From: Methanosalsum natronophilum
Lineage (GTDB): Archaea > Halobacteriota > Methanosarcinia > Methanosarcinales > Methanosarcinaceae
Length of the DNA: 64,000 bases
NCBI RefSeq assembly: GCF_024808815.1
Contig: NZ_JANUCS010000001.1
Coordinates: 186,001 to 250,000, forward strand
Direction: 5' to 3'
Shown: piece after piece, positions 2,444 through 16,670 of the stretch
Layout: every line of letters begins with the position of its first letter
How positions within the stretch are numbered: the first letter of the stretch is position 1
Made by a program: the position numbers and the translations under genes
Notes under the pieces: model-generated
Seen by the model: the letters and a program-made list of their open reading frames with translations, nothing else
What the model was told of the DNA's origin: nothing
Databases searched by the model: none

Positions 2444-3862
2444 ATGAGCTATAGTAATACTGATGGGATTATGATTGGGTTGGAAATACACGTCCAGCTC
2501 AATAGACTAAAAACCAAGATGTTCTGTGGATGCTCGACCCAGTATCATAGTTCACCGCCTAATACCCATGTATGCCCTGTTTGTCTTGGATTACCAGGTG
2601 CTTTACCAGTAATAAACCAAAAAGCTGTTGAATCTGCCATGAAGGTTGGATTGGCCTTAAACTGTGAAATAGTAGAACAAACACAATTCCATAGGAAGAA
2701 CTATTATTATCCAGACCTTCCTAAAGGTTACCAAGTAAGCCAATTCGATTACCCCATTGTTAGCAATGGTAAGGTTGCAATAGAAGGTGAGGATGGCGAG
2801 CTGGTTATAAGGATTAGGAGAGCTCACATGGAAGAGGACCCTGGTAAACTTATACATATGGGATCCATTGATAAGTCTAAGGGTACCCTTATAGATTATA
2901 ACCGGTCGGGTATGGCATTATTAGAAATTGTAACTGAACCAGATATTAGAAGTCCAAAAGAAGCTAGAAGATTCTTAGATAAACTTAGAAATATACTAGA
3001 ATACCTTGATGTCTTCGATAGTGATCTAGAAGGTGCAATGAGGGTAGATGCAAATATATCGCTACAAGGTGGAGACAGAACCGAAATCAAAAATATATCA
3101 TCACATAAAGGAGCTGAAAGAGCACTTTTATACGAAATAATGCGACAAAAAAATCTTCTAAGACGTGGTGAAATTGTCACAATGGAAACCAGGCATTTTG
3201 ATGAGGCGCGTGGTGTGACAACTTCTATGAGAAGCAAAGAAGAAGAACATGATTATCGATACTTCCCAGAACCTGACCTTGTACCACTAAGAGTTAAAGA
3301 CAGAACTGAAAAATTGTTACAAGAACTACCTGAACTACCAGATGCAAAAAAAGAAAGGCTAATAAGTCAGTATTCAATTTCAGATATGCATGCAAAAGCC
3401 TTAGTCTCTAATCTAAAAATTGCTAATTTCTACGAAGAAGTAGCATCTGAGGTTAATCCAAAAGTAGCTGCAACTTGGATTGCTGATGTTTTGAAAGGAG
3501 AACTCAATTATCGTGATCTAACAATAGATGCATGCAAGGTTGAAGATATTGTCCAGCTTGTCACTATGATCATGGAAAACAAAATCACTGATAGAAGCGC
3601 AGTTGAAGTTATCAGAACATTATTAGATTCCGGTGGCAATTGCATGGAAATTGTTGAGAAAAAGGGACTTGTTAAAGTAGAAGACAATGTAGTTGAACAA
3701 GCAGTTGATGATGTATTAGGTGAAAACAAGAATGCAATCAATGATTACCTCAATGGAAAAGAGCAATCTTTGAACTTTTTAGTTGGACAAGTCATGAAAA
3801 AAACTAGAGGTAGAGCAGATCCAATGATAGTCAGAGACATCATTGCCAATCGAATCAAATAA
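2444..3862 (+). CDS. gatB: Asp-tRNA(Asn)/Glu-tRNA(Gln) amidotransferase subunit B
   Basis: This 472-residue protein begins with the GatB signature GLEIHVQL and has the Zn-binding region CGCSTQ...[12 protein letters not shown], then [14 protein letters not shown] and [17 protein letters not shown]. It phosphorylates the tRNA-bound Asp/Glu and amidates it with ammonia from GatA. The C-terminal helical tail and YqeY-like part (about 330-472) contact the tRNA and end in a typical GRADP motif. Its start directly follows the gatA stop with no gap. The next gene is 114 bp away, so the operon probably ends here. Confidence 0.96.
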
Positions 3863-3976
3863 CTAAAATACATTTTAAGTAGAGATATCAAAACAGTTAT
3901 ATTGGTTAAGATGTATGTAGCGAGGCAGATATTACTTACATGATTTTAATTATCAAATTATCAAAGGTGAAAGACT

Positions 3977-4123
3977 ATGGCACGATTCCCAGAAGCTGAA
4001 AATAGAATCCTAAACAAAAAAATATGCATGAGATGCAATGCAAGAAATGGTTCTCGTGCATCTAGATGCAGAAAATGTGGATACAAACAGCTAAGACCAA
4101 AATCAAAAGATGTGAGAGGCTGA
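3977..4123 (+). CDS. rpl40e: 50S ribosomal protein L40e
   Basis: This 48-residue basic protein reads [20 protein letters not shown] and then a second CxxC (CRKCGYKQL). The two CxxC pairs form the small zinc finger of L40e, and the lysine/arginine-rich tail fits a ribosomal protein. The ATG is preceded by AAAGGTGA eight bases upstream. It lies 8 bp before the GGGP synthase gene and is probably co-transcribed with it. Confidence 0.93.
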
Positions 4124-4131
4124 TCCAATAA

Positions 4132-4878
4132 ATGGAAGTTGAAAAGTACCTCAATAAAATAGTAGAAGATGAAGGTACTGTTCATCTTACTTTAATAGAT
4201 CCTGCCTCACAAACCCCAGAAGAGGCAGGTCATATTGCCCATGAAGCTGTTAGTGGTGGAACTGATGCAATTATGGTCGGAGGTTCTACAGGCGCTGGCG
4301 GAACTATACTTGACCAAACAATTGAACAAATAAAACAAAAGGTTGCTAAACCTGTAATCTTATTCCCAGGCAACGTTGATGGAATAAGTCCAAAAGCTGA
4401 TGCAATCTTTTTTATGAGTTTATTGAACTCTCGTGATGTCAATTTTGTTGCAACTAATCAAATGATTGGTGCACCGCTTGTCTACAAGTATGGTATTGAA
4501 GCTATTTCTATGGCTTACCTGATAGTAGAGCCAGGTGGAACAGTTGGATGGGTCGGTGACGCAAAACTTATCCCAAAGAACAAGCCAGAACTTGCAGTTG
4601 CTTATTCACTCGCAGGAAAGTACCTTGGAATGCATTATACATACCTTGAAGCTGGTTCAGGTGCAAGTGAACCCATAAAACCTAGAATGATAGCAGCAAC
4701 TAAAAAAGCATTAGGTTCATCTAATAAATTAATTGTTGGTGGTGGAATCCGATCTCCAGCTGATTCTGGAAAATGTGCCGAGGCAGGTGCAGATATGATA
4801 GTTACTGGAACTATTGTCGAAGAAACTAGTGATATCAAATCAAAGGTCGAAGAAATAATAAAAGCTATCAAACAATAA
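4132..4878 (+). CDS. geranylgeranylglyceryl phosphate synthase
   Basis: This 248-residue TIM-barrel prenyltransferase joins geranylgeranyl diphosphate to sn-glycerol 1-phosphate, the first ether bond of archaeal membrane lipids. Family landmarks are HLTLIDPA near the N-terminus, the GTDAIMVGGSTG phosphate loop, PVILFPGN, and the C-terminal phosphate-binding runs YLEAGSGA, LIVGGGIRS and GADMIVTGTIVEE. Length fits PcrB/GGGPS enzymes of group II. It is 8 bp downstream of L40e. Confidence 0.93.
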   Translation: MEVEKYLNKIVEDEGTVHLTLIDPASQTPEEAGHIAHEAVSGGTDAIMVGGSTGAGGTILDQTIEQIKQKVAKPVILFPGNVDGISPKADAIFFMSLLNSRDVNFVATNQMIGAPLVYKYGIEAISMAYLIVEPGGTVGWVGDAKLIPKNKPELAVAYSLAGKYLGMHYTYLEAGSGASEPIKPRMIAATKKALGSSNKLIVGGGIRSPADSGKCAEAGADMIVTGTIVEETSDIKSKVEEIIKAIKQ

Positions 4879-4982
4879 AGTTTACTTTTTATTCATAAAT
4901 CAATTTTACATACCAATATCAGCTTTTTAAGAAGTAAAAGCTCAAATACTCAATTCATGTATCTCATTCCAAGAGGTGCGCT

Positions 4983-6677
4983 ATGCTGAAAGTAAATAAC
5001 ATAACTAAATTCTACAAGCTTGATTCTTTTGATAAAAAAGTTCTCGATAATATCTCATTTAAAGTAGATGATGGAGAAATACTTGGAATTACAGGTAAGA
5101 GTGGTAGTGGTAAAACAACATTATTAAAAGTACTCCGTGGTGTTGAAAGTTTAGATGAAGGTACAATAGAACTCAATGGTGTATCCATCAATAGTGGTTC
5201 AGGTAAAGAAGGGTCAAAGTTTCTGATAAAAAACACTGCAATTCATTTACAACGTAGTTTTGGACTTTGGAACGGTCCTGCAATCGAAAACGTTATAAGA
5301 AAACTCAGTTACATTCGAACAGGAAATGAGTCTTTACCAGAGAAGGATTCACCTTACTACGATGATATGTACAATGAAGCCTATAAATATTTAAAAATGG
5401 TAAAGCTTGATCAGAAAGCGCTCCATTCATCAAGTGCTTTAAGTGGTGGTGAAAAACAAAGACTAATTATTGCAAGACAGCTTGCTTCAAGGCCATCTTT
5501 ATTACTTCTTGATGAACCTGTAACAATGACTGGTCCGGAAACAAAACAACAGGTTTTAGATGTTTTAAAAGAGTTGAAGTTAAAACTAAATATTCCAATA
5601 ATTGTTGTTTCTCATTTACCGGAAGTCCACATGTATCTCTCTGACAGATTAGTATTTATTGAAGATGGAAAGCTAGTTGATGATGGTTTGCCTGAATCTG
5701 TTCTCAAAAATTATAACAAAGATTTGAAGCCCCGTTTAGATTTTAAAGTTAATGAAAGCAAAACTGAATGCATAAATGTAAACAATATCTCTAAAAGGCT
5801 TGTTCTTTTAAGAGTTGGAGAAGTTTTGAATATTCAAAACTTGTCCTTGAAAATAAAAAAAGGTGAAATTGTATCATTAATTGGTCCATCTGGTACGGGA
5901 AAGACCACTTTAATGAAAATAATAGAAGGACTACTTGAGCCAAAAACAGGTAATGTCTGTTATAACTTAGACGGCGACTGGATAGAAATTACCAAGTTTA
6001 GTAGGAGGAGAATGGAGCTACGCCAAAAAATCAGTATTATGCACCAAGAATTCTCACTATCTCCACATTCAACTATTAGAGAACAAATTGGGTTCAAATT
6101 AAGCATGAAAAAAAGAGGTTCTTTAGAATATGCTCAAATGAAGGCAAGTGAATTAAACATTTCAGAAGAACTTCTAGATACTATCTACCGCCTACCAGAT
6201 ATGAGTGAAAATGAAAGAGCTATGAAAATGCACCAACTGAATCTTTCAGATGATATTTACTCAAAGCTTTTCCCAAAAATAACAAACACAGACCTTGAAA
6301 ACTATTCAATCCCGATTTTTGAGTCTTTAAACCTACCTCTAGAAATTTTAGACAAAAAACCACACCATATAAGTGGCGGAGAACATGTGAGAGCTTATAT
6401 AGCTACAGCACTAGCAACATATCCAGATATTTTATTCCTTGATGAGCCTTTTGGAGATTTGGACCCAGTTACGCTAAGAGATGTAACTAATGCACTAAAA
6501 TCAATCAACAAAGATTTTGGTACAACTATTATATTTGTCAGCCATCACATTGACTTTGTGAAAGAAGCGGCAAATAGAGCTATCTTGATACTTGATGGTG
6601 AAATTGCAAATGACGGTAAACCAAGTGATGTCTGTCAAGATTTCATAGATAGAAGTAATGTAAAATACCTAAACTAG
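4983..6677 (+). CDS. atwA: methyl-coenzyme M reductase system component A2 (tandem ABC ATPase)
   Basis: The 564-residue soluble protein has two complete ABC ATPase domains and no membrane segments. Domain 1 has Walker A GKSGSGKTT (38-46), signature SGGEKQR (154-160) and Walker B LLLLDEP. Domain 2 has Walker A GPSGTGKTT (301-309), signature SGGEHVR (464-470) and LFLDEP. A long inserted helical stretch precedes the second signature. Two-domain ABC proteins of this size in methanogens are component A2, which takes part in ATP-dependent reductive activation of methyl-CoM reductase. The assignment from family knowledge is firm; the activity is not tested here. Confidence 0.9.
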   Translation: MLKVNNITKFYKLDSFDKKVLDNISFKVDDGEILGITGKSGSGKTTLLKVLRGVESLDEGTIELNGVSINSGSGKEGSKFLIKNTAIHLQRSFGLWNGPAIENVIRKLSYIRTGNESLPEKDSPYYDDMYNEAYKYLKMVKLDQKALHSSSALSGGEKQRLIIARQLASRPSLLLLDEPVTMTGPETKQQVLDVLKELKLKLNIPIIVVSHLPEVHMYLSDRLVFIEDGKLVDDGLPESVLKNYNKDLKPRLDFKVNESKTECINVNNISKRLVLLRVGEVLNIQNLSLKIKKGEIVSLIGPSGTGKTTLMKIIEGLLEPKTGNVCYNLDGDWIEITKFSRRRMELRQKISIMHQEFSLSPHSTIREQIGFKLSMKKRGSLEYAQMKASELNISEELLDTIYRLPDMSENERAMKMHQLNLSDDIYSKLFPKITNTDLENYSIPIFESLNLPLEILDKKPHHISGGEHVRAYIATALATYPDILFLDEPFGDLDPVTLRDVTNALKSINKDFGTTIIFVSHHIDFVKEAANRAILILDGEIANDGKPSDVCQDFIDRSNVKYLN

Positions 6678-7135: not shown

Positions 7136-7942
7136 TTAAACCTTTTCCATTAAATAGTAATAAGCTATTTTAGATCTCCATTTAGCAGGTAAAATGCTTA
7201 AAACCGAATTAATTATAGCAAAACCCCTACCTGGAATTATTATTTCATTTCCTTTTTTAATCCCATTATAAGTTTGCTCTACAACTGAATTAACATCAAG
7301 AGTTAACCAAGAGTTGAAACTGTGTGTATTCTTCATACACGCCTTGATTTCAAAGTTAGTTCCACTCACTGCAGATGGACATACTACAGTCATTTTTACA
7401 TTTGAGCCAATTTCCTTAAGCTCATAAGAAACTGCACGACTAAATTGGAGAATAAAACTTTTACTTGCACCATACGTTGCCATTAAAGGATTTGGCTGAA
7501 AAGCAGTGATTGAAGAAAAGTTTATGATATAGCCATAGTCTTGTTTAAGCATGTCTTTAAGAAAAAGACGCGTTAACTCATAGACACTGCATATATGTAA
7601 GTATAGCATATTCAACTCAATATCTTTATCAATATCTTTTAAAAAGCCATAGGTACCAAATCCTGCACAGTTTATTAAAACATTTACTTTAAGGTTGTTC
7701 TCCTTAGTATATTTGTAAACTTCTAATGCTGATCCTTTTTTGGATAAATCCATTTCCAATGTATGGATCTTAGTGTTCACACCTTCATTTACCAACAACC
7801 TATATGCAGTATCTAATTCTTCCCTTGAAATTGATACCAGCAAAATATCATGACCTTCATATGCATATTTTCTAGCAAGCCCAAACCCAATTCCTTGTGA
7901 GCCACCTGTGATTAATATAGTACCTGAGTCAAACTTCCCCAT
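7136..7942 (-). CDS. short-chain dehydrogenase/reductase
   Basis: This 268-residue classical SDR has the NAD(P) loop TGGSQGIGFG at about residues 13-22, the NCAGFG motif, a catalytic serine in NFSSITAF and the YGASK catalytic Tyr-Lys pair. The C-terminal part fits the family that acts on hydrophobic ketones or ketoacyl substrates, but the substrate cannot be read. It is the last gene of a four-gene minus-strand set (28 bp after the aldehyde dehydrogenase) and is convergent with the phasin-like gene, 9 bp apart. Confidence 0.87.
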   Translation of the reverse strand: MGKFDSGTILITGGSQGIGFGLARKYAYEGHDILLVSISREELDTAYRLLVNEGVNTKIHTLEMDLSKKGSALEVYKYTKENNLKVNVLINCAGFGTYGFLKDIDKDIELNMLYLHICSVYELTRLFLKDMLKQDYGYIINFSSITAFQPNPLMATYGASKSFILQFSRAVSYELKEIGSNVKMTVVCPSAVSGTNFEIKACMKNTHSFNSWLTLDVNSVVEQTYNGIKKGNEIIIPGRGFAIINSVLSILPAKWRSKIAYYYLMEKV

Positions 7943-7970
7943 CTGCTTTACCTACATAGTATTTGTATGT

Positions 7971-9380
7971 TCAAGAAAACCATTTATGTATTTCTTTAAG
8001 TTTCTCAAGTTTTTTTTCAGAATATGGAGGATATATCAAATTCAAATTTCCCCACTTCCTGTGGATAATACTCCTCTGATTAGAAAATTCAACAAATCCA
8101 TGGAATCCAAAAGATTTACCTATACCACTATTGTTTACACCACCAAATGGTAAATTTGGATTACTATACCCCAACATATAATCATTGATTACAGATCCCC
8201 CGGCAGTAGTGTGGTTTATTAAATAGTTAATATTCTTTTTATCTTTACTTGCAATATACATGGTAAGTGGTTTTGGTCTTCTAGAAACAATATCACAGGC
8301 TTCTGAGGTTGATGAATATTTAATAACAGGAAGAATTGGCCCGAATATCTCATCGTTCATAATTTCCATATCTTCTGCAACGTTATCTAATATTGTGGGA
8401 GAAATATACAAGGAAGATTCATCAAACTCTCCTCCATAAACTACATGTGCTCCTTTTTCTAAAGCATCATTAAACATTGATTCAAGTCTCTTGAAATGTT
8501 TTTCATTGATTATTCTACCATAATCTGATGACATCTTGATATTTTCTTGGGCAGAATAGAGTTTTTCTATTGAATATATCATATTTTCCAGAAAATCATT
8601 ATATACTACATCTTTTAAGATCAGGTAATCGGGGGCAATACATGATTGACCAGTGTTTATGAATTTTGCCCATGTGCATTTCTCAGAAATCCCAGAGAGG
8701 TCCGCTGTTTCGTCAATTATGGAAGGGGATTTGCCACCAAGTTCCAATGTTACACTTGACAAGTTCTTTGCCGCTTCTGACATCACAATTTTGCCTATTT
8801 GAGGGCTACCTGTGAAAAATATATGGTCAAATGGTTTGCTCAGAAGCTCCTGTGCAATATTAGACCCTCCCTCCACAACAGCAACCTCCTTTTCATCAAA
8901 CAGGTCAGTAATCATTTTTTTAATAAATCTTGACGTGCTAGATGAAATTTCACTAGGTTTTAGAACAATTGAATTTCCTGCAGAAAGAGCATATATAAGA
9001 GGAACTATACTCAAATTTAGCGGATAGTTCCAAGGAGATATTATTAATGTTATTCCTTTCGGCTCATAATGAATATAGGATTTGGTTCCAAGTAAAGACA
9101 ATGGCCTAGATACTTTTTCAGGCTTCATCCATTTCTTAAGATTTTTTTTTACAAATGATAAATGTGCATGTATGATACCTGTTTCACTAATCAAAATCTC
9201 AGCTTTAGGTTTTTTTAGATCCGTATACATTGCATGGTAGAGTTGATCTAAATTTTTTTCATTGTTTAGATAATTCTCAATTAGTTCAAGTTTTTGTATC
9301 CTTTGCCCAGAATCAGAATTCTTTATATTATTCTGATTTTCTTTTTGCTGATTAAATAAAGCATCTATATCATTGGCCAT
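7971..9380 (-). CDS. aldehyde dehydrogenase family protein
   Basis: This 469-residue NAD(P)-dependent aldehyde dehydrogenase has the PWNYPL cofactor loop, the FTGSPQIGK Rossmann motif, the general-base glutamate in LELGGKSP and the catalytic cysteine in NTGQSCIAPDY. Length, the short N-terminus and the PFGGVNNSGIG motif resemble class 3 fatty/aromatic aldehyde dehydrogenases. Such enzymes are uncommon in methanogens. It sits between an SDR and a membrane protein in one apparent operon, so a hydrophobic aldehyde substrate is a fair inference, not a demonstrated one. Confidence 0.9.
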   Translation of the reverse strand: MANDIDALFNQQKENQNNIKNSDSGQRIQKLELIENYLNNEKNLDQLYHAMYTDLKKPKAEILISETGIIHAHLSFVKKNLKKWMKPEKVSRPLSLLGTKSYIHYEPKGITLIISPWNYPLNLSIVPLIYALSAGNSIVLKPSEISSSTSRFIKKMITDLFDEKEVAVVEGGSNIAQELLSKPFDHIFFTGSPQIGKIVMSEAAKNLSSVTLELGGKSPSIIDETADLSGISEKCTWAKFINTGQSCIAPDYLILKDVVYNDFLENMIYSIEKLYSAQENIKMSSDYGRIINEKHFKRLESMFNDALEKGAHVVYGGEFDESSLYISPTILDNVAEDMEIMNDEIFGPILPVIKYSSTSEACDIVSRRPKPLTMYIASKDKKNINYLINHTTAGGSVINDYMLGYSNPNLPFGGVNNSGIGKSFGFHGFVEFSNQRSIIHRKWGNLNLIYPPYSEKKLEKLKEIHKWFS

Positions 9381-9417
9381 AATACTTTACCACATATTAA
9401 TAATAGTTAATTATTCG

Positions 9418-10239
9418 TCATACGGCTACAAATCCAAGCATTGAAAAGATGTAGAAAATCGATAAGCTAATTGCTGCAAAGGCTTCGATTTTCCCCCAAT
9501 CCTTCTTATGTTTGAATAGGTCATTTAATGTCAAGCATATCCACAACAAAAATATATATCCTGCCATAAGCGAAAAGAAGGAAAACTCAGGGTGATACCA
9601 AGTACCTATAGTTTCTCCCGAAAACTCTGTTAAAACTGTGAAGAAACCTACAAAAGCAACCAATCTATATCCTCTAATTGATTTAAATAGAAGTACTGCA
9701 AGACCAAATTTAGCTATTATTGGAAGTAGGTTGGCTGATAGATCAAAATATAAATAATCTACGAGTATCAGTAATAAGAAAGCAATCAATATAACAAAAT
9801 TAGTTTGATTGAACCAATGTCTATTAGAGTAATTTTCTTCGAATGTCCTCCATAAATTATAGGATGACCAGAATATTGCACCATAGCCTGGAAGTATCCA
9901 GATAGGAACACCACCAATTACTCCACCTAAATATATAAAATACTCAAAATGAACCCCTATAAGTTCATGTATATAACCAAATACTGATGCGATAAAGAGA
10001 AAGAGCTTACCCCTAAACTCACTGTTTTTCCAGAAAATAAACCAGATTATAGACAAGTAAAGGAAAGGAATTATTTCGATCTCAGTTAGTTCATAAAAAA
10101 ATAACACACCATAGATAGACAAGAGCATGAACACTGTAAAATACAAGAAATTGTTTATTACAATTTTACTTTTCTTATCTATTTGACCAATGAGTGAATG
10201 AATCAGTGTATCAATATTTGTCATGCTCCCTAATAGCAC
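9418..10239 (-). CDS. polytopic membrane protein of unknown function
   Basis: This 273-residue protein has about seven to eight hydrophobic segments, with few charged loops. The conserved-looking stretch ELIGVHFEYFIYLGGVIGGV followed by PIWILPGYG recalls membrane enzymes of the carotenoid hydratase (CruF/DUF422) type, where acidic and aromatic residues face the membrane, but the match is only by eye. The GTG start at 10239 is preceded by AAAGGA with 5-base spacing; an internal ATG at 10224 has its SD too close. It lies 37 bp upstream of the aldehyde dehydrogenase and 57 bp downstream of the flavin reductase. Confidence 0.6.
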   Translation of the reverse strand: MLLGSMTNIDTLIHSLIGQIDKKSKIVINNFLYFTVFMLLSIYGVLFFYELTEIEIIPFLYLSIIWFIFWKNSEFRGKLFLFIASVFGYIHELIGVHFEYFIYLGGVIGGVPIWILPGYGAIFWSSYNLWRTFEENYSNRHWFNQTNFVILIAFLLLILVDYLYFDLSANLLPIIAKFGLAVLLFKSIRGYRLVAFVGFFTVLTEFSGETIGTWYHPEFSFFSLMAGYIFLLWICLTLNDLFKHKKDWGKIEAFAAISLSIFYIFSMLGFVAV

Positions 10240-10296
10240 ATTTATCCTTTTATAATCTTTTCATTTTCATCTTTAGTTGTACAGGTACAATAATTG

Positions 10297-12465
10297 TCAT
10301 ATATTCCTTGCAATTTCATTTGCCGAACTTACAGCTCCCCATACTAAACCAATTTCTTTAGCATCACCAACTTGGTATATCTCACGTGCAGCCTGAGCAT
10401 TTTTCAACTCCTGATACAAACCATCATCAGGTACTCCAGTAGTTGCAAAAATAACATAATCGACATCAAAATTCAAATGTTCGACTTTTTCCGGATTTAA
10501 CTTTTTCTCAAAAGGATTATTCACATTTTCAGGAATTAATGACATCCAAGGAATATAGGGGTCCTTGCGATCTTTATTAGAAAATATATAGACTTGATTC
10601 TCTGAAAAACCAATGATTTTTGAAGCAGTATATGCCTTTACTGCTTGATCTAAACTATCCTTTTTATTTCCATTAGTTGAACCTTTTCCCATGAGCAACC
10701 ATAACATCTGGTTGCGATTAGCCATAGTTGTATTTGGCATTAAATTCTTGTTTTTACTAACTATTGTTACATTATAAGACTTGTTTTTTGCTACTATGTA
10801 AGCAAGTTCGCATCCTACATTACCACCCCCAACAATAAGTATATTTTTTTTATTAGGTGGTACTTTCATACCATTTGAAATGAATTGTCTTGCACCAATG
10901 TGATCGATCTTATCAAGGCCATTTATGTGAGGGATGTTTTCTTTTAAACCGTTACAGCAAATAATCACATCGAATTGATCCTTTATATCACCTAATGTTG
11001 CTTCTTTATTGAATACAAGGGTCAAACCTTGCTCATTGGCTCGCTCAATTTTATGATTAATATTATCCAAGTACCTCTTAAGGTCATGCTTCATCTCCAT
11101 CTTACTACCTAAATATAGTTGACCACCAATTACAGAGCTTTTTTCGAAAAGTGTTACATTGTGGCTTCTTTTGTGTGCTGTGAGTGCAGCTTCACAGCCC
11201 GCTGGGCCTGCGCCAACAATACATACCCTTTTTTTAATTTCAGCGTTCTTTATTTCCTTAACATCTTCAAAGCCCATATATGGATTCACAGAACAACAGG
11301 GATGTCCTCCTTTCTTAAAAGATTCGATGCAACCTTCATTATCGCCTATACAATGAATTATGTCTTTAACATCACCTGTTTTTACTTTATTAGGCCAATA
11401 TGGATCAGCTAACAAAGGACGGCCCAGCATAATAAAATCTGCCCAATTTTTATTTAATACATATGAAGCAACTTCAGGTTTTCCAAGTTTACCTACTGCA
11501 ACAACAGGTACATTAATACCTTCCGAAACAAAAAATTGCTTTAATCTACCCGCAATTTCTTCCACATAAACTGCATCATCGAAATAAGAGGGTAAATGTG
11601 GCCAAAACCAATTTTCATAACATCCTTTATCAACATCAAACGCATCCACCCCAGCTTCATTTAAAGCCTTACAAAATTGTAAACCTTCCTCTATACTTCT
11701 TTCTTTACCTTTAAAAATATCTTTGAATATACTTTCACCGTACGTTTCCCTTATAGCTTGTGTCAAGTCTAATCGATAAATTATAGGAAAGTCAGTGCCA
11801 CACCTACTTTTAATCTCTTTAACTACATCTAATGCAAATCTGAATTTATCCTTATATCGACCAAATATTCTTCTATTCCATGGATTTGATGTTAACTGAT
11901 CCATCAAATAACCTTCATGTCCATGTAGTTGAACCCCATCAAAACCTGAGATCTTTGCATTAATAGCACACTGCCCAAAACTCTTCACTATTTTCTTAAT
12001 ATCTCGATTAGATAATGGTAAATGAGGAACTTGAGGAACGTAAAAATTCCTATTCCAAGATGCAGATTTTAATAGTTTACCTTTCAAAGCTGGTTCTGGT
12101 GAGCCAACGCGACCAAGACCTGCTGATAATTGTATAAATATCTTGGATCCATATGGTCTCACACTCGATGTAAGATCTTGCCAACCACTAAGTCTGGTTC
12201 GTGAAGTACCATCAATTCTTGGAAAATATGTCGTGTTATTATCTTCTAAGAGTGTTGGATCCACTCCATAAGATACAGGAACCAAACCAGTAATTAGTAG
12301 CCCACAACCACCTTTTGCTCTTTCCCTAAAAAATTCAATCATTTTATTTGTAGGACGGCCATTGGAATCCACCATATTAATATTGCCAATAGGCGCCATG
12401 ATTATTCTATTATTTAGTTTACAACTACCAATCTGGCCTGATTCAAACAGGTTATCAAATTCCAT
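10297..12465 (-). CDS. old-yellow-enzyme / 2,4-dienoyl-CoA reductase family flavoprotein
   Basis: This 722-residue enzyme has an N-terminal FMN TIM barrel (1 to about 360; HGHEGYLMDQLTSNPWNRR is diagnostic), a [4Fe-4S] linker, then FAD and NAD(P) domains (VCIVGAGPAGCEAA, ILIVGGGNVGCELA) and a C-terminal YQVGDAKE motif. Family members reduce enoate or enal double bonds with NAD(P)H. The Fe-S motif is unusual: C372-I-G-D375-N-E-G-C379 and C391, with Asp where the family has the second Cys. It is the first gene of the four-gene operon. No substrate can be assigned. Confidence 0.88.
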   Translation of the reverse strand: MEFDNLFESGQIGSCKLNNRIIMAPIGNINMVDSNGRPTNKMIEFFRERAKGGCGLLITGLVPVSYGVDPTLLEDNNTTYFPRIDGTSRTRLSGWQDLTSSVRPYGSKIFIQLSAGLGRVGSPEPALKGKLLKSASWNRNFYVPQVPHLPLSNRDIKKIVKSFGQCAINAKISGFDGVQLHGHEGYLMDQLTSNPWNRRIFGRYKDKFRFALDVVKEIKSRCGTDFPIIYRLDLTQAIRETYGESIFKDIFKGKERSIEEGLQFCKALNEAGVDAFDVDKGCYENWFWPHLPSYFDDAVYVEEIAGRLKQFFVSEGINVPVVAVGKLGKPEVASYVLNKNWADFIMLGRPLLADPYWPNKVKTGDVKDIIHCIGDNEGCIESFKKGGHPCCSVNPYMGFEDVKEIKNAEIKKRVCIVGAGPAGCEAALTAHKRSHNVTLFEKSSVIGGQLYLGSKMEMKHDLKRYLDNINHKIERANEQGLTLVFNKEATLGDIKDQFDVIICCNGLKENIPHINGLDKIDHIGARQFISNGMKVPPNKKNILIVGGGNVGCELAYIVAKNKSYNVTIVSKNKNLMPNTTMANRNQMLWLLMGKGSTNGNKKDSLDQAVKAYTASKIIGFSENQVYIFSNKDRKDPYIPWMSLIPENVNNPFEKKLNPEKVEHLNFDVDYVIFATTGVPDDGLYQELKNAQAAREIYQVGDAKEIGLVWGAVSSANEIARNI

Positions 12466-12675: not shown

Positions 12676-12990
12676 ATGTCAGAGAGAGATGAACGTTACA
12701 ACAGTGAACTAAAAAGGCGAGGCGTACCAAAAGATCTATTTGATGCTAGTAGGCAAGTAACCTGTCCTGAATGTGGACAATCATTTAACCTATTCTACTC
12801 AAGAGCTAAACTCTGCACAGGATGTATCCATGCAGTTAATGGATGTGAATTTGCGCGTTGTATTCGATGTGATACTGAGTTCCCATTAACGGATTTCATG
12901 AACAAAGCAAAGTCTAGGAGAACTTCAACTTACTTAGAGTCTTTAATAAACAACTATCATAATACATTTGGTGAACGGCCTGGTAGGTAA
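12676..12990 (+). CDS. zinc-ribbon protein of unknown function
   Basis: The 104-residue protein carries four cysteine pairs or near-pairs: CPECG (35-39), CTGC, a lone Cys in NGCEF and CIRC. This suggests two zinc knuckles. Flanks are basic (SERDERYNSELKRRGVPK and KAKSRRTS), which would suit nucleic-acid or ribosome contact. It stands alone between divergent and co-directional genes and I do not recognise the family. The start ATG at 12676 has no clear SD and lies about 25 bases from an AT-rich stretch, so the mRNA may be leaderless. Confidence 0.6.
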   Translation: MSERDERYNSELKRRGVPKDLFDASRQVTCPECGQSFNLFYSRAKLCTGCIHAVNGCEFARCIRCDTEFPLTDFMNKAKSRRTSTYLESLINNYHNTFGERPGR

Positions 12991-13141: not shown

Positions 13142-14788
13142 ATGAAAACCTCACAATTTAATGATGAAACGGATATCATTGTTAATAGTAGCCCAGCTGT
13201 AATTTTTTTATGGGAGGCTAAAGATAATTGGCCCGTAGAATTCGTTTCTGACAATATCCTTCAATTTGGCTATGAAAAAGAGGAATTTATAGAAGGTAAA
13301 CTGAAATATGGGGACATTGTTCATCCAGATGACCTGCCTAGGTTGAAAAAACAACTTAATCGGTATTGTAGCGAGAATACATATAAAGGTTTTACTCAGG
13401 AATACCGTATTATCACAAAATTTGGTGAAACACGTTGGGTTGACGAACGTACTCTTATAAGAAAAGACAGTAATGGTAAAATAACACACTTCCAAGGAAT
13501 CATCCTTGACATAACTGAAAGAAAAAAGCATGAGGAAGAGCTACTTTTAAATGAGAATAGATTAGAAACACTTCTCAAGCTTAACAAGATGACCGGTTAT
13601 AGTGTGAGTGAGATAATTGATTTTTCCTTAGAAGAAGGTATAAAACTCACTAAAAGTAAAATCGGATACATTGCATTTTTAAATTCTTCCGAAACTGTTC
13701 TCACAATGCATGCTTGGTCTAAAAAAGCAATGTCAGAATGTGGAGTTAATACTAAGCAAAGATTATATGATGTAGAGAATACTGGTTTGTGGGGAGATGC
13801 TATAAGACGGCGAAAGCCCATTATCACAAACGATTACGAGGCATGCGAAACAAGAAAGGGTTACCCAGAAGGGCATGTATCAATTAAAAGACATATGAAC
13901 GTCCCAATATTCGATGGATCAAAAATAGTTGCTTTGGTAGGTGTGGGAAATAAAGAAGAAGATTATGATACAAATGATGTTCGTCATTTGAGACTCTTAA
14001 TTGAAGGTATGTGGAAAATAATTCAGAGAAAAGAACTTGAAGATTCACTTATGATTTTCTCTAAAGATTTTGAGAAGGCTAACAATGAATTAAAGTCTAT
14101 TCAGAGTATAAAAAAGGAGTTATTCGATTCGATTGGTTCTTCACAAATAAGTGACCGACATACATCAATCTTTGATCATGAAGCTATAAATTCGATAAAT
14201 GAACAGCAAAGCCAAGTAATGCAAGATTTGATAAGAAGCTCAGAAAAATTGAAAAGTATTATTGATTCAATGGTATATATGAGTGCTGAGAGTGCTGGAA
14301 AGATCACTTATTATATGACTTACGAGAACCCTGAAGAACTTATCAATGATGCTGTACTAAACATTATACTAAACATCGATGAAAAAAATATAACTATTGA
14401 ACAGTATATCCCTAAAAATATTTCTAAGTTGAGGGTTGATAAAGAAAAGTTTACTGATGCTTTAACAAGAATAATTTTTAGCTCAATTCATTTTACACCA
14501 ATCGCAGGGAATATAGATATTAAAGTTTCAGAATATGGGAATTATGTATACTTTGAGGTCAAAGATAATGGTGTAGGTATACCTGAACCACTTGCATCTA
14601 GTTTATTCATGCGATTTCACCAATTCAATGACATTGTATTTGACACCTCGTGGTATGAAGTCTATGAAGAATTGAAATCTAATTATTATATAGCTAAAAA
14701 TATCATTGAAGCACATAAAGGTAAAATTTGGGTTGAAAGCAATAAAGGAAAAGGAACCTTGGTCAAAATAAAACTTCCTAAATTTTAA
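13142..14788 (+). CDS. PAS-GAF sensor with degenerate histidine-kinase domain (MsmS-like)
   Basis: The 548-residue soluble sensor has a PAS/PAC domain (about 10-130, ending FQGIILDITERKKHEE), a GAF domain (about 150-300, with the methanogen-typical ITNDYEA and KGYPEGHV motifs) and a C-terminal kinase-like module. The module lacks the phospho-acceptor HExxxP box, has serines where the N-box asparagine should be (IIFSSIHFTP), keeps G1 as DNGVGIP near residue 475, and has lost the glycine-rich G2 box. Catalysis is therefore doubtful. In Methanosarcina, MsmS, a heme-bearing PAS-GAF protein, sits beside an Msr regulator; the same arrangement is seen here, 53 bp upstream of an Msr gene. Confidence 0.85.
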   Translation: MKTSQFNDETDIIVNSSPAVIFLWEAKDNWPVEFVSDNILQFGYEKEEFIEGKLKYGDIVHPDDLPRLKKQLNRYCSENTYKGFTQEYRIITKFGETRWVDERTLIRKDSNGKITHFQGIILDITERKKHEEELLLNENRLETLLKLNKMTGYSVSEIIDFSLEEGIKLTKSKIGYIAFLNSSETVLTMHAWSKKAMSECGVNTKQRLYDVENTGLWGDAIRRRKPIITNDYEACETRKGYPEGHVSIKRHMNVPIFDGSKIVALVGVGNKEEDYDTNDVRHLRLLIEGMWKIIQRKELEDSLMIFSKDFEKANNELKSIQSIKKELFDSIGSSQISDRHTSIFDHEAINSINEQQSQVMQDLIRSSEKLKSIIDSMVYMSAESAGKITYYMTYENPEELINDAVLNIILNIDEKNITIEQYIPKNISKLRVDKEKFTDALTRIIFSSIHFTPIAGNIDIKVSEYGNYVYFEVKDNGVGIPEPLASSLFMRFHQFNDIVFDTSWYEVYEELKSNYYIAKNIIEAHKGKIWVESNKGKGTLVKIKLPKF

Positions 14789-14841: not shown

Positions 14842-15624
14842 ATGAAAACTGAACTAATAGGCACAGTGTTTCTTTCTGAAAAAAGAAAGGCCATTCTTTT
14901 GATGTTAATGGATGGACCCACTACAGTAGATGAAATTAAAAAATGTCTTACTGGTACCTCTAGTGCAATTATGACTCAAATCAAAATACTTCTCGAACAG
15001 GGCTTGATAGAGAACGAAGATTATGAGTATAGGTTAAGTTATATTGGCGAGATTATAGTAAAGAAGATGAAGCCATTAATCAAAACTCTAAATGTCTTAG
15101 AAGAACATAAGGATTTTTGGCAAAATAGAGACTTAGGACCAATACCTGAACATCTACTTGATAGGATTGGAGAGTTAGGTGATGTTATAGTTTATGAACC
15201 CGACCTTAACCACTTGTTCGAGCCACCACAAGAGCTATTAACCAGTTTATATCAATCACAAAATGTTAGTACATTATACTCATACTTTTGCCCATCCTGC
15301 CCTAAAAATTATTCCGAGTTAGCAAAAAAAGAAACAAATTTCGAGCTTATATTAACAAAACCCGTATATGAGCGTCTAGAAGAAGAGTATACAGAAGAAC
15401 ATAATGCTATGATCGAGAATGAAAACTCAAATATCTATATTTGTGATGATACTGCAATAAAACTTGGTGCTCTTTCTGTTACAGACGATATGATGCTAAT
15501 TGCTTTTTTCAATAAAGATGGTGTTTTTGACCATAAAAAAGTTATGAGCTTTGATGAAAGTGCAAGACTTTGGGGCCAAGAACTCTTTAACTACTATAAA
15601 GAGCGAGCAACACCGGTCAAGTAA
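14842..15624 (+). CDS. Msr-type transcriptional regulator (wHTH plus FilR1/DUF1724 domain)
   Basis: The 260-residue protein has an N-terminal ArsR-like winged helix (about 1-75; KRKAILLMLMDGPTTVDEIK, then a recognition helix TGTSSAIMTQIKILLEQGLI) and a C-terminal DUF1724/FilR1 domain (about 110-250, with PEHLLDRIGELGD and the terminal MSFDESARLWGQELFNYYK). This architecture is that of the Msr regulators that activate or repress methyltransferase operons in Methanosarcina. It follows the sensor gene by 53 bp, with its own TTTATATATC box, and precedes the corrinoid gene. The 76-bp element shared by the two methyltransferase promoters is its natural candidate target. Confidence 0.88.
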   Translation: MKTELIGTVFLSEKRKAILLMLMDGPTTVDEIKKCLTGTSSAIMTQIKILLEQGLIENEDYEYRLSYIGEIIVKKMKPLIKTLNVLEEHKDFWQNRDLGPIPEHLLDRIGELGDVIVYEPDLNHLFEPPQELLTSLYQSQNVSTLYSYFCPSCPKNYSELAKKETNFELILTKPVYERLEEEYTEEHNAMIENENSNIYICDDTAIKLGALSVTDDMMLIAFFNKDGVFDHKKVMSFDESARLWGQELFNYYKERATPVK

Positions 15625-15806
15625 AACAACTTTATAACTTTAATTCTTGCATTGTTTTTTCTTTTTAAATAATAGTTGAAGAATGAGTATTTAGATTTAT
15701 CCTTGATATTATCAATGAGATTGATTTATTTTACGTTATGGTTTTACTGTCTTATCTAGATAATAATTATGTTAAGAAACAACCATTCATTGTTGATAAT
15801 ATAAAT

Positions 15807-15882
15807 AACTTTGACCAATTACCACAAGTTATTATATATATCTCTAACCAGATATTGATTAACAGTCAATGAATACAAATTA
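15807..15882 (+). promoter_or_regulatory. promoter/operator P1 of the corrinoid protein gene
   Basis: A 76-bp block here matches, without gaps, 66 of 76 bases of the block upstream of the UroD methyltransferase operon (21694-21769, minus strand). The 5' part, AACTTTGACCAATT and then RCCAYAAG, is the likely activator site; TTATTATATATATCTC (15829-15844) contains the TATA box. A start about 25 bases downstream would leave a 5' leader near 140 nt before the ATG at 16005. Weaker similarity continues about 20 bp further, through TATTTGTT. Confidence 0.8.
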
Positions 15883-16004
15883 TGTATTTGTTATATTGAC
15901 AAAAATAACAACAGAATACTGAACAGATTGTTGAGAATGGTTAGAATTTGATTTCAATCCATTCCTTACAAGATTATACTAAAAATAAATTCTGGAGGAA
16001 AATT

Positions 16005-16670
16005 ATGGACGAAAAAGAAATACTCAGTGGTCTCACAGACGCAGTAGTAAACGGTAAAAAAGATCAAGCAACAGAGCTGTCTGAAAAAGCACTGGAAGCT
16101 GGAATTGACCCATATAAAGCAATTGTAAATGGTCTAGCTAATGGTATGGAAATTATGAGCCAAAAGTATGAGGATGGAGAAGTCTTTATGCCACACCTTT
16201 TAATGTCATCCAATGCCATGTATGCAGGAATGGATGTACTTACACCTCATCTAAAAATGGAAGGTGCTGAAAAAGCTGCTGTTTTGGTAATTGGTACCGC
16301 TGAGGGAGACGTCCACGATATTGGAAAGAACTTAGTTAAAACAATGATGTCAGCTGTCGGTTTCGATGTTATTGATCTTGGTAAAGATGTGCCTGTTCCT
16401 GAATTTGCTGATGCTGTTGAGAAAAACAAAGCAGATGTAGTTTCAATAAGCACATTGATGACATCAACCATGGATAACATGGAAAATACTGTTAAAGATA
16501 TTGCAAGCAAAGGTCTTAGAGATAAAGTAAAAATAGTTGTTGGTGGTGCCCCTGTCACTGAAGCTTTCGCTAAAGATATTGGAGCAGATGAATATAAAGC
16601 TGATGCTATGGGAGCTGCTAAGTGGGCAAAAGAAGCAGTTAAAGAACTTGATTCCTCCAGATGGGGATGA
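16005..16670 (+). CDS. corrinoid methyl-carrier protein (MtaC/MtbC/MttC family)
   Basis: This 221-residue protein has the four-helix cap domain (about 1-90) and the B12-binding domain with D102-V-H104-D-I-G107, in which the histidine is the lower cobalt ligand, followed by SISTLMTST and VVGGAPVTEAFA. It carries a methyl group from a substrate methyltransferase to a CoM methylase. Sequence alone does not tell which methylated substrate. The ATG at 16005 follows TGGAGGAAAATT, so an upstream in-frame start at 15948 is rejected. It is monocistronic, shares its promoter with the UroD-type operon on the other strand, and ends at a strong terminator. Confidence 0.92.
   Translation: MDEKEILSGLTDAVVNGKKDQATELSEKALEAGIDPYKAIVNGLANGMEIMSQKYEDGEVFMPHLLMSSNAMYAGMDVLTPHLKMEGAEKAAVLVIGTAEGDVHDIGKNLVKTMMSAVGFDVIDLGKDVPVPEFADAVEKNKADVVSISTLMTSTMDNMENTVKDIASKGLRDKVKIVVGGAPVTEAFAKDIGADEYKADAMGAAKWAKEAVKELDSSRWG

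Follow-up and report, generated by a model that had tools for sequence, protein, structure and literature searches.

Genes and features of the locus

In the window, the 64,000-nucleotide stretch of Methanosalsum natronophilum DNA analysed here, the open reading frame described by the first-pass annotation at 13142..14788 (+) was present as stated and encodes a protein of 548 aa. The ORF, the Pfam matches, an alignment and a tree identified it as an H-box-less PAS-GAF-HATPase sensor of the MsmS/RdmS type. Pfam placed a PAS_3 domain at aa 34-121 (13241..13504, +) and a GAF_2 domain at aa 154-295 (13601..14026, +), in agreement with the earlier impression that both domains look intact. A helical hairpin of the dimerisation type follows (aa 297-400; 14030..14341, +), assigned as lacking the H-box from the model, Pfam and a check of its His columns, and then a degenerate HATPase (CA) domain (aa 401-548; 14342..14785, +), recognised by Pfam (HATPase_c match at aa 435-547), alignment, the model and its fold matches. 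In a single-chain structure model (pLDDT 84.6, pTM 0.70) the helix hairpin (277-333 and 340-384) and the CA fold were predicted to be retained, and the second dimerisation helix, which had been proposed to be kept, lies within the modelled hairpin. The lid region, at about 486-501, was modelled with low confidence, and a predicted helix (502-524) passes through the place of the G2 box. PDB matches of the model were histidine kinases (HK853 and others), DivL (4q20) and the NifL-NifA complex 9qq6.

The gene of a FilR1/Msr-type regulator of 260 aa (14842..15624, +) starts 53 bases past the sensor gene. It encodes a winged helix and a FilR1_middle domain, as indicated by Pfam (FilR1_middle PF08350, 3.3e-37; HTH_5, 4.5e-6), by a model and by fold matches; a receiver domain was absent both from the Pfam matches and from the fold matches of the model. 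Since the model (pLDDT 91) matched the folds of TrmBL2, TrmB and phospholipase-D, the regulator looks like a TrmB-type protein with a ligand domain and not like a response regulator.

After a gap of approximately 320 bases (15625..15947, +), which we presume from its position to be the target promoter region, lies the gene of a stand-alone, MtbC-like corrinoid protein (15948..16670, +), which probably begins with the ATG at 16005. The order sensor-regulator-corrinoid is conserved in four other genomes (G073, G018, G020 and G021), and in G037 the sensor and the corrinoid gene are some 2.8 kb apart, on opposite strands. Related sensor-regulator pairs stand ahead of fused corrinoid methyltransferases. 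This applies also to the sensor paralogue in the same genome (contig C3; full-length, 45%), which is followed by a FilR1-type gene and then by a fused corrinoid/URO-D methyltransferase gene. The conserved gene order suggests that the sensor-regulator pair of the window controls the corrinoid gene, its presumed target.

Directly upstream of the sensor, at 12676-12990 (+), we found a gene of a small Cys-rich, zinc-ribbon-like protein, which had no Pfam or NCBIfam match; a protein 83% identical is encoded in the same place in G073. Also near the pair, at 7139-12465 (-), are genes of a short-chain dehydrogenase, an aldehyde dehydrogenase, a membrane protein and an OYE-type flavoenzyme. In the genomes of genus g7, a membrane protein, an aldehyde dehydrogenase and a short-chain dehydrogenase, relatives of those near the window gene, follow on the same strand. 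As these three genes stand in line with the sensor, Msr and corrinoid genes in three g7 genomes, they may belong to one regulon.

Kinase motifs, descent and regulator pairing in the sensor family

To place the sensor among its relatives, we used 121 distinct entries among the matches listed in one family search (E<=1e-60), a sample biased towards relatives of the window gene. The C-termini of these 121 sensors, all from one methanogen family, were aligned with a canonical kinase from the same genome. The H-box, scored as [ST]HE[LF]KTPL, was found in 49 of the 121 listed entries. One further sensor (L149), with an H-box of another type (RHDLLNPA) and a GTGLGL lid, was left out of the 71 H-less sensors and counted among the 121 for the GAF residues discussed below.

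No HisKA domain was matched in the window sensor by Pfam at E<=1, and in the same scan three H-box relatives, used as a control, gave HisKA matches at E 1e-16 to 1e-17. Pfam likewise gave no HisKA match for MsmS, L053 or the paralogue from the same genome, and RdmS had a sub-threshold match covering the second helix only. In the alignment with the 49 H-box homologues, the N-box position of the window sensor is occupied by Ser447 (14480..14482, +) instead of the Asn found in all 49. The four glycines of G2 (509, 510, 512 and 514; Gly in 49/49 at each) have all been lost, and EELKSN (aa 509-514; 14666..14683, +) stands in their place. The G1 residues D475, G477 and G479 are retained in an intact DNGVGI box (aa 475-480; 14564..14581, +). 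Thus, the motif losses listed in the first-pass annotation (H-box, N-box Asn and G2, with G1 kept) were borne out by Pfam and by alignment. We also checked by alignment for an acceptor His at a shifted position. In the window clade of seven members (see below), no hairpin column has His in more than two sequences, which indicates that the acceptor was not merely displaced, and a shifted acceptor His was rejected.

Sensors of the MsmS/RdmS kind, which have no H-box, were named MA_type 2, and RdmS was shown not to be an autokinase (PMC11784639). A 2019 review also states that MsmS and RdmS have no phosphorylatable His and that their regulators have no receivers. The H-box loss, already published for this kind, is therefore not new for the window gene. 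Of the features of a histidine kinase, the window sensor has the CA fold with G1, and the acceptor His, the N-box Asn and the G2 glycines are missing; of the features of MA_type 2, it has a HATPase domain without an H-box, membership of the clade that holds RdmS and MsmS, a GAF pair of the Cys656/His702 type and an adjacent receiver-less Msr-type regulator. The best explanation is that the sensor belongs to the MsmS/RdmS (MA_type 2) kind, is cytoplasmic and works without histidine phosphotransfer.

In a maximum-likelihood tree built on the GAF and C-terminal part, all 71 listed H-less sensors formed one clade (SH-aLRT 99 for the split), and repeated independent loss of the H-box was rejected in favour of a single H-less clade. 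Within it, a clade with support 100 united the window gene with six orthologues, the seven coming from three genera. In this window clade the N-box Asn and the G2 glycines are absent from all members (0/7 each), EELK[SA] stands at the place of G2 in 7/7, and G1 is fully kept in 7/7. Among the other H-less sensors listed, 56/64 keep the N-box Asn. The eight that do not belong to two groups, the MsmS group (Asn replaced by His or Tyr) and a g7/g10 group (Asp or Ser). These sequences suggest that the acceptor His was lost first and that the ATP site then loosened repeatedly, a change not seen in the 49 H-box entries.

For three ortholog pairs of the window clade, dN/dS by the Nei-Gojobori method, rough because dS exceeded 1 in some segments, was 0.06-0.18 (PAS), 0.10-0.16 (GAF), 0.05-0.08 (hairpin) and 0.07-0.21 (CA domain); the hairpin was the most constrained domain in two of the three pairs. 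The low dN/dS and the conservation across three genera argue that the gene is not decaying, and on these grounds we rejected a pseudogene. As G1 is kept throughout the clade and dN/dS of the CA domain is low, some nucleotide binding may remain.

A FilR1-type regulator gene was found on the same strand within 2.6 kb of each of the 71 listed H-less sensors. For 59 of them it was located in the flank initially taken, and for the other 12 it was 2.2-2.6 kb upstream. Flanks of 1.5-2 kb were used for most entries and of about 6-8 kb for 40 of the 49 H-box entries; for L237 one side comprised 598 bases. In the wide flanks of the 40 H-box relatives such a regulator occurred within 5 kb only once (a weak match of 32 bits, 4.5 kb away), a second relative had a FilR1-type match 7.7 kb away, and in the narrow flanks of the remaining nine none was found (0/9). 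As the H-less sensors form a single clade, this pairing represents one evolutionary event kept since then and not 71 trials. Corrinoid or methyltransferase genes were present nearby for 50 of the 71 H-less sensors, an undercount for those with short flanks, and for H-box relatives in 3/49 cases with narrow and 6/40 with wide flanks.

In the portions of the literature on DUF1724 and archaeal histidine kinases that were accessible, we found no prior statement of the pairing rule or of the ATP-site loss. Both the strict sensor-regulator pairing among H-less sensors and the additional loss of N-box and G2 under purifying selection, in a clade of seven members and three genera, appear to be new.

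The converse, that FilR1-type genes occur only beside H-less sensors, proved false. On contig C18 of the same genome (G000:C18, L155, 3431-7366, -), two tandem FilR1-type regulators are followed by a membrane sensor kinase with a His of the EIHHRVKNN type, which we take to be HisKA_2-like, and with a PAS domain resembling that of the window sensor. MA4377 of M. acetivorans, a His-keeping kinase of another family, has the FilR1-type regulators MsrC/MsrX near it, and one FilR1-type gene of the window's own genome stands alone. In G074 there were 27 PF08350 match pieces, as against at least two H-less sensors among the family-search matches listed.

The GAF Cys/His pair and in-frame TAG codons

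The cysteine of the GAF domain had been proposed as a plausible place of heme attachment, as in MsmS. Cys200 of the window sensor (codon 13739..13741, +) and His245 (13874..13876, +) align exactly with Cys656 and His702 of the MsmS-like frame in G074, numbered from the first Met; we take these two residues of MsmS to be the heme attachment site and ligand. Both numbers fit exactly, and we infer that G074 is M. acetivorans. The cysteine is thus an exact homologue of MsmS Cys656, and the His702 homologue is present as well, but the residues are unspecific: the Cys656-type residue occurs in 120 of the 121 listed entries and the His702-type residue also in 120, including all 49 H-box kinases. The pair therefore does not mark the window protein as a heme sensor, and the cysteine was rejected as a special mark. 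RdmS has the same Cys and His residues, yet it is described as thiol-based.

The only entry with neither residue is L026 (G037), in which Cys is replaced by His and His by Asp, and which has a TAG in the same GAF domain. This double loss hints that the Cys and His act together. In three g7 orthologues of the window gene (L023, L025 and L063, from three species), an in-frame TAG stands at the nearly invariant Trp192 of GAF, eight residues ahead of the heme-type Cys.

We also noticed that the RdmS-like frame of G074 carries an in-frame TAG within its second PAS domain (an invariant TAG, codon 222 of the L051 frame 2646-5588, -). The orthologous codon is TAG in L035-L040, L042, L043, L046, L048, L075, L076 and L078-L080, that is, the second-PAS codon is TAG in 16/16 RdmS orthologues from two genera (g5 and g13). 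In the same orthologues, synonymous variation is seen at 73 of the 76 other codons whose residue is invariant and degenerate, and two-fold pyrimidine sites changed in 18/18 cases. A single TAG also lies within the match in seven further PAS domains, from g7 and g10, and no TAA or TGA was found inside a match among the PAS matches listed. PylS is encoded in 99 of the 111 genomes of the family, the window's own genome included. On the sequence evidence, the in-frame TAG of RdmS probably encodes pyrrolysine. The frame after the TAG comprises 759 codons, so RdmS as studied or annotated may be without its first PAS domain and a portion of the second. At the corresponding position the window gene carries CAG. 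The accessible portions of the literature contained nothing that links RdmS with pyrrolysine.

Mode of signalling and comparison with known systems

The first-pass annotation had called the sensor a probable pseudo-histidine kinase, which is supported by the missing motifs, the conservation in three genera, the purifying selection and the receiver-less regulator. These observations, together with the pairing and the synteny with the corrinoid gene, make it fairly likely, in our view, that the protein is a contact-acting, NifL-like redox/heme sensor that works without phosphotransfer and controls the downstream corrinoid-protein gene. The PAS domain and the GAF domain, with its putatively heme-binding Cys/His pair, would read an intracellular redox or methyl-substrate signal, and the change would pass via the kept dimeric helix hairpin to the HATPase-fold domain. 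This domain, having lost the acceptor His, the Mg-binding Asn and the ATP lid, would have a nucleotide-binding role at most; it would touch the co-encoded TrmB-like FilR1/Msr regulator and alter its DNA binding, and the regulator would in turn control the next gene, which encodes a corrinoid protein of methyl transfer. Signalling by contact is probable because the acceptor His and most of the ATP signature are lost and a DNA-binding regulator adjoins this kind of sensor. Output through contact with the Msr regulator, as suggested earlier, is consistent with these data and has become likelier with the pairing in 71/71 cases; the contact step itself we infer.

Alternatively, the sensor could have remained a protein kinase that depends on ATP and phosphorylates Ser/Thr/Tyr residues, either in the Msr regulator or in another partner. 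The G1 Asp and glycines are retained in all seven members of the window clade, RdmS is reported to bind and hydrolyse ATP although it has no H-box, and Georgiev et al. suggest partner-protein phosphorylation by MA_type 2 kinases (PMC11784639). However, the window clade has neither the Asn that RdmS keeps nor any G2 glycine, and the absence of the N-box Asn from three separate H-less groups, the MsmS-like one included, suggests a relaxed need for Mg-ATP; we consider this explanation unlikely. Less probable still is that the catalytically dead sensor assists another kinase, as its hetero-dimer or phosphatase-like partner, and feeds a REC-only phosphorelay. The dimerisation hairpin, retained in the model, would permit this, and many REC-only proteins and phosphorelays are described for Methanosarcina in the same work (PMC11784639), but the constant neighbour is a FilR1-type regulator, which is receiver-less. 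That the sensor is a decaying histidine-kinase relic and the regulator works alone, sensing a ligand by its own PLD-like domain as TrmB does, would agree with the predicted TrmB-like fold of the ligand domain and with the many FilR1-type genes that stand without such a sensor, but it is very improbable in view of the full-length frames in three genera, dN/dS of 0.05-0.21, EELK fixed in 7/7, the maintained gene order and the hairpin, which in two of the three pairs is under tighter constraint than any other domain.

A broader reading, which we put forward tentatively and with somewhat less than even confidence, is that in Methanosarcinaceae the H-less sensors together with the FilR1/Msr regulators make up one obligate signalling module free of phosphotransfer. 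The His would have been lost once, with a receiver-less TrmB-like partner thereafter, and the window clade would have shed its ATP chemistry and become purely allosteric and redox/heme-controlled, an archaeal counterpart of NifL-NifA. How archaeal sensors without an H-box signal is a question posed in print (PMC11784639). The window clade offers a natural experiment, as here the ATP site is also gone and both selection and the same partner are maintained. If these sensors still control their regulator, kinase activity would be dispensable for output and contact would be favoured over phosphorylation; comparison of window-type with RdmS-type proteins makes the question directly testable. A number of methanogen sensors that carry a histidine-kinase annotation would then also fall outside two-component signalling.

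MsmS and RdmS of M. acetivorans resemble the window sensor in the missing H-box, the PAS/GAF domains, the GAF Cys and His and the FilR1/Msr-type regulator directly downstream. The window protein is 42-44% identical to them over the shared part and is shorter, with one PAS and one GAF domain. In RdmS the N-box Asn and part of G2 are still present, and MsmS has His at the Asn position but retains QGLESG; at these places the window clade shows SS-like and EELK residues. Tyr phosphorylation of RdmS, reported earlier, was later withdrawn. In FilI/FilR1 of Methanosaeta harundinacea, a regulator with winged helix and FilR1_middle likewise stands beside a PAS/GAF sensor; FilI, however, is a HisKA-bearing autokinase and FilR1 has a C-terminal receiver, and the window pair has neither HisKA nor receiver. 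DivL of Caulobacter crescentus (4q20), among the matches of the sensor model, combines a kinase fold with a changed acceptor residue; its acceptor position is Tyr instead of His, and it functions in a bacterial phosphorelay. By analogy, the proposed mechanism has its closest working precedent in NifL-NifA of Azotobacter vinelandii, operon-encoded like the window pair, in which NifL, a kinase-like redox sensor without kinase activity, is described as controlling NifA by contact (PMC8063818). NifL differs in having FAD in its PAS domain and in keeping the H motif, and NifA is another kind of regulator; the likeness is one of design and not of kinship between the regulators.
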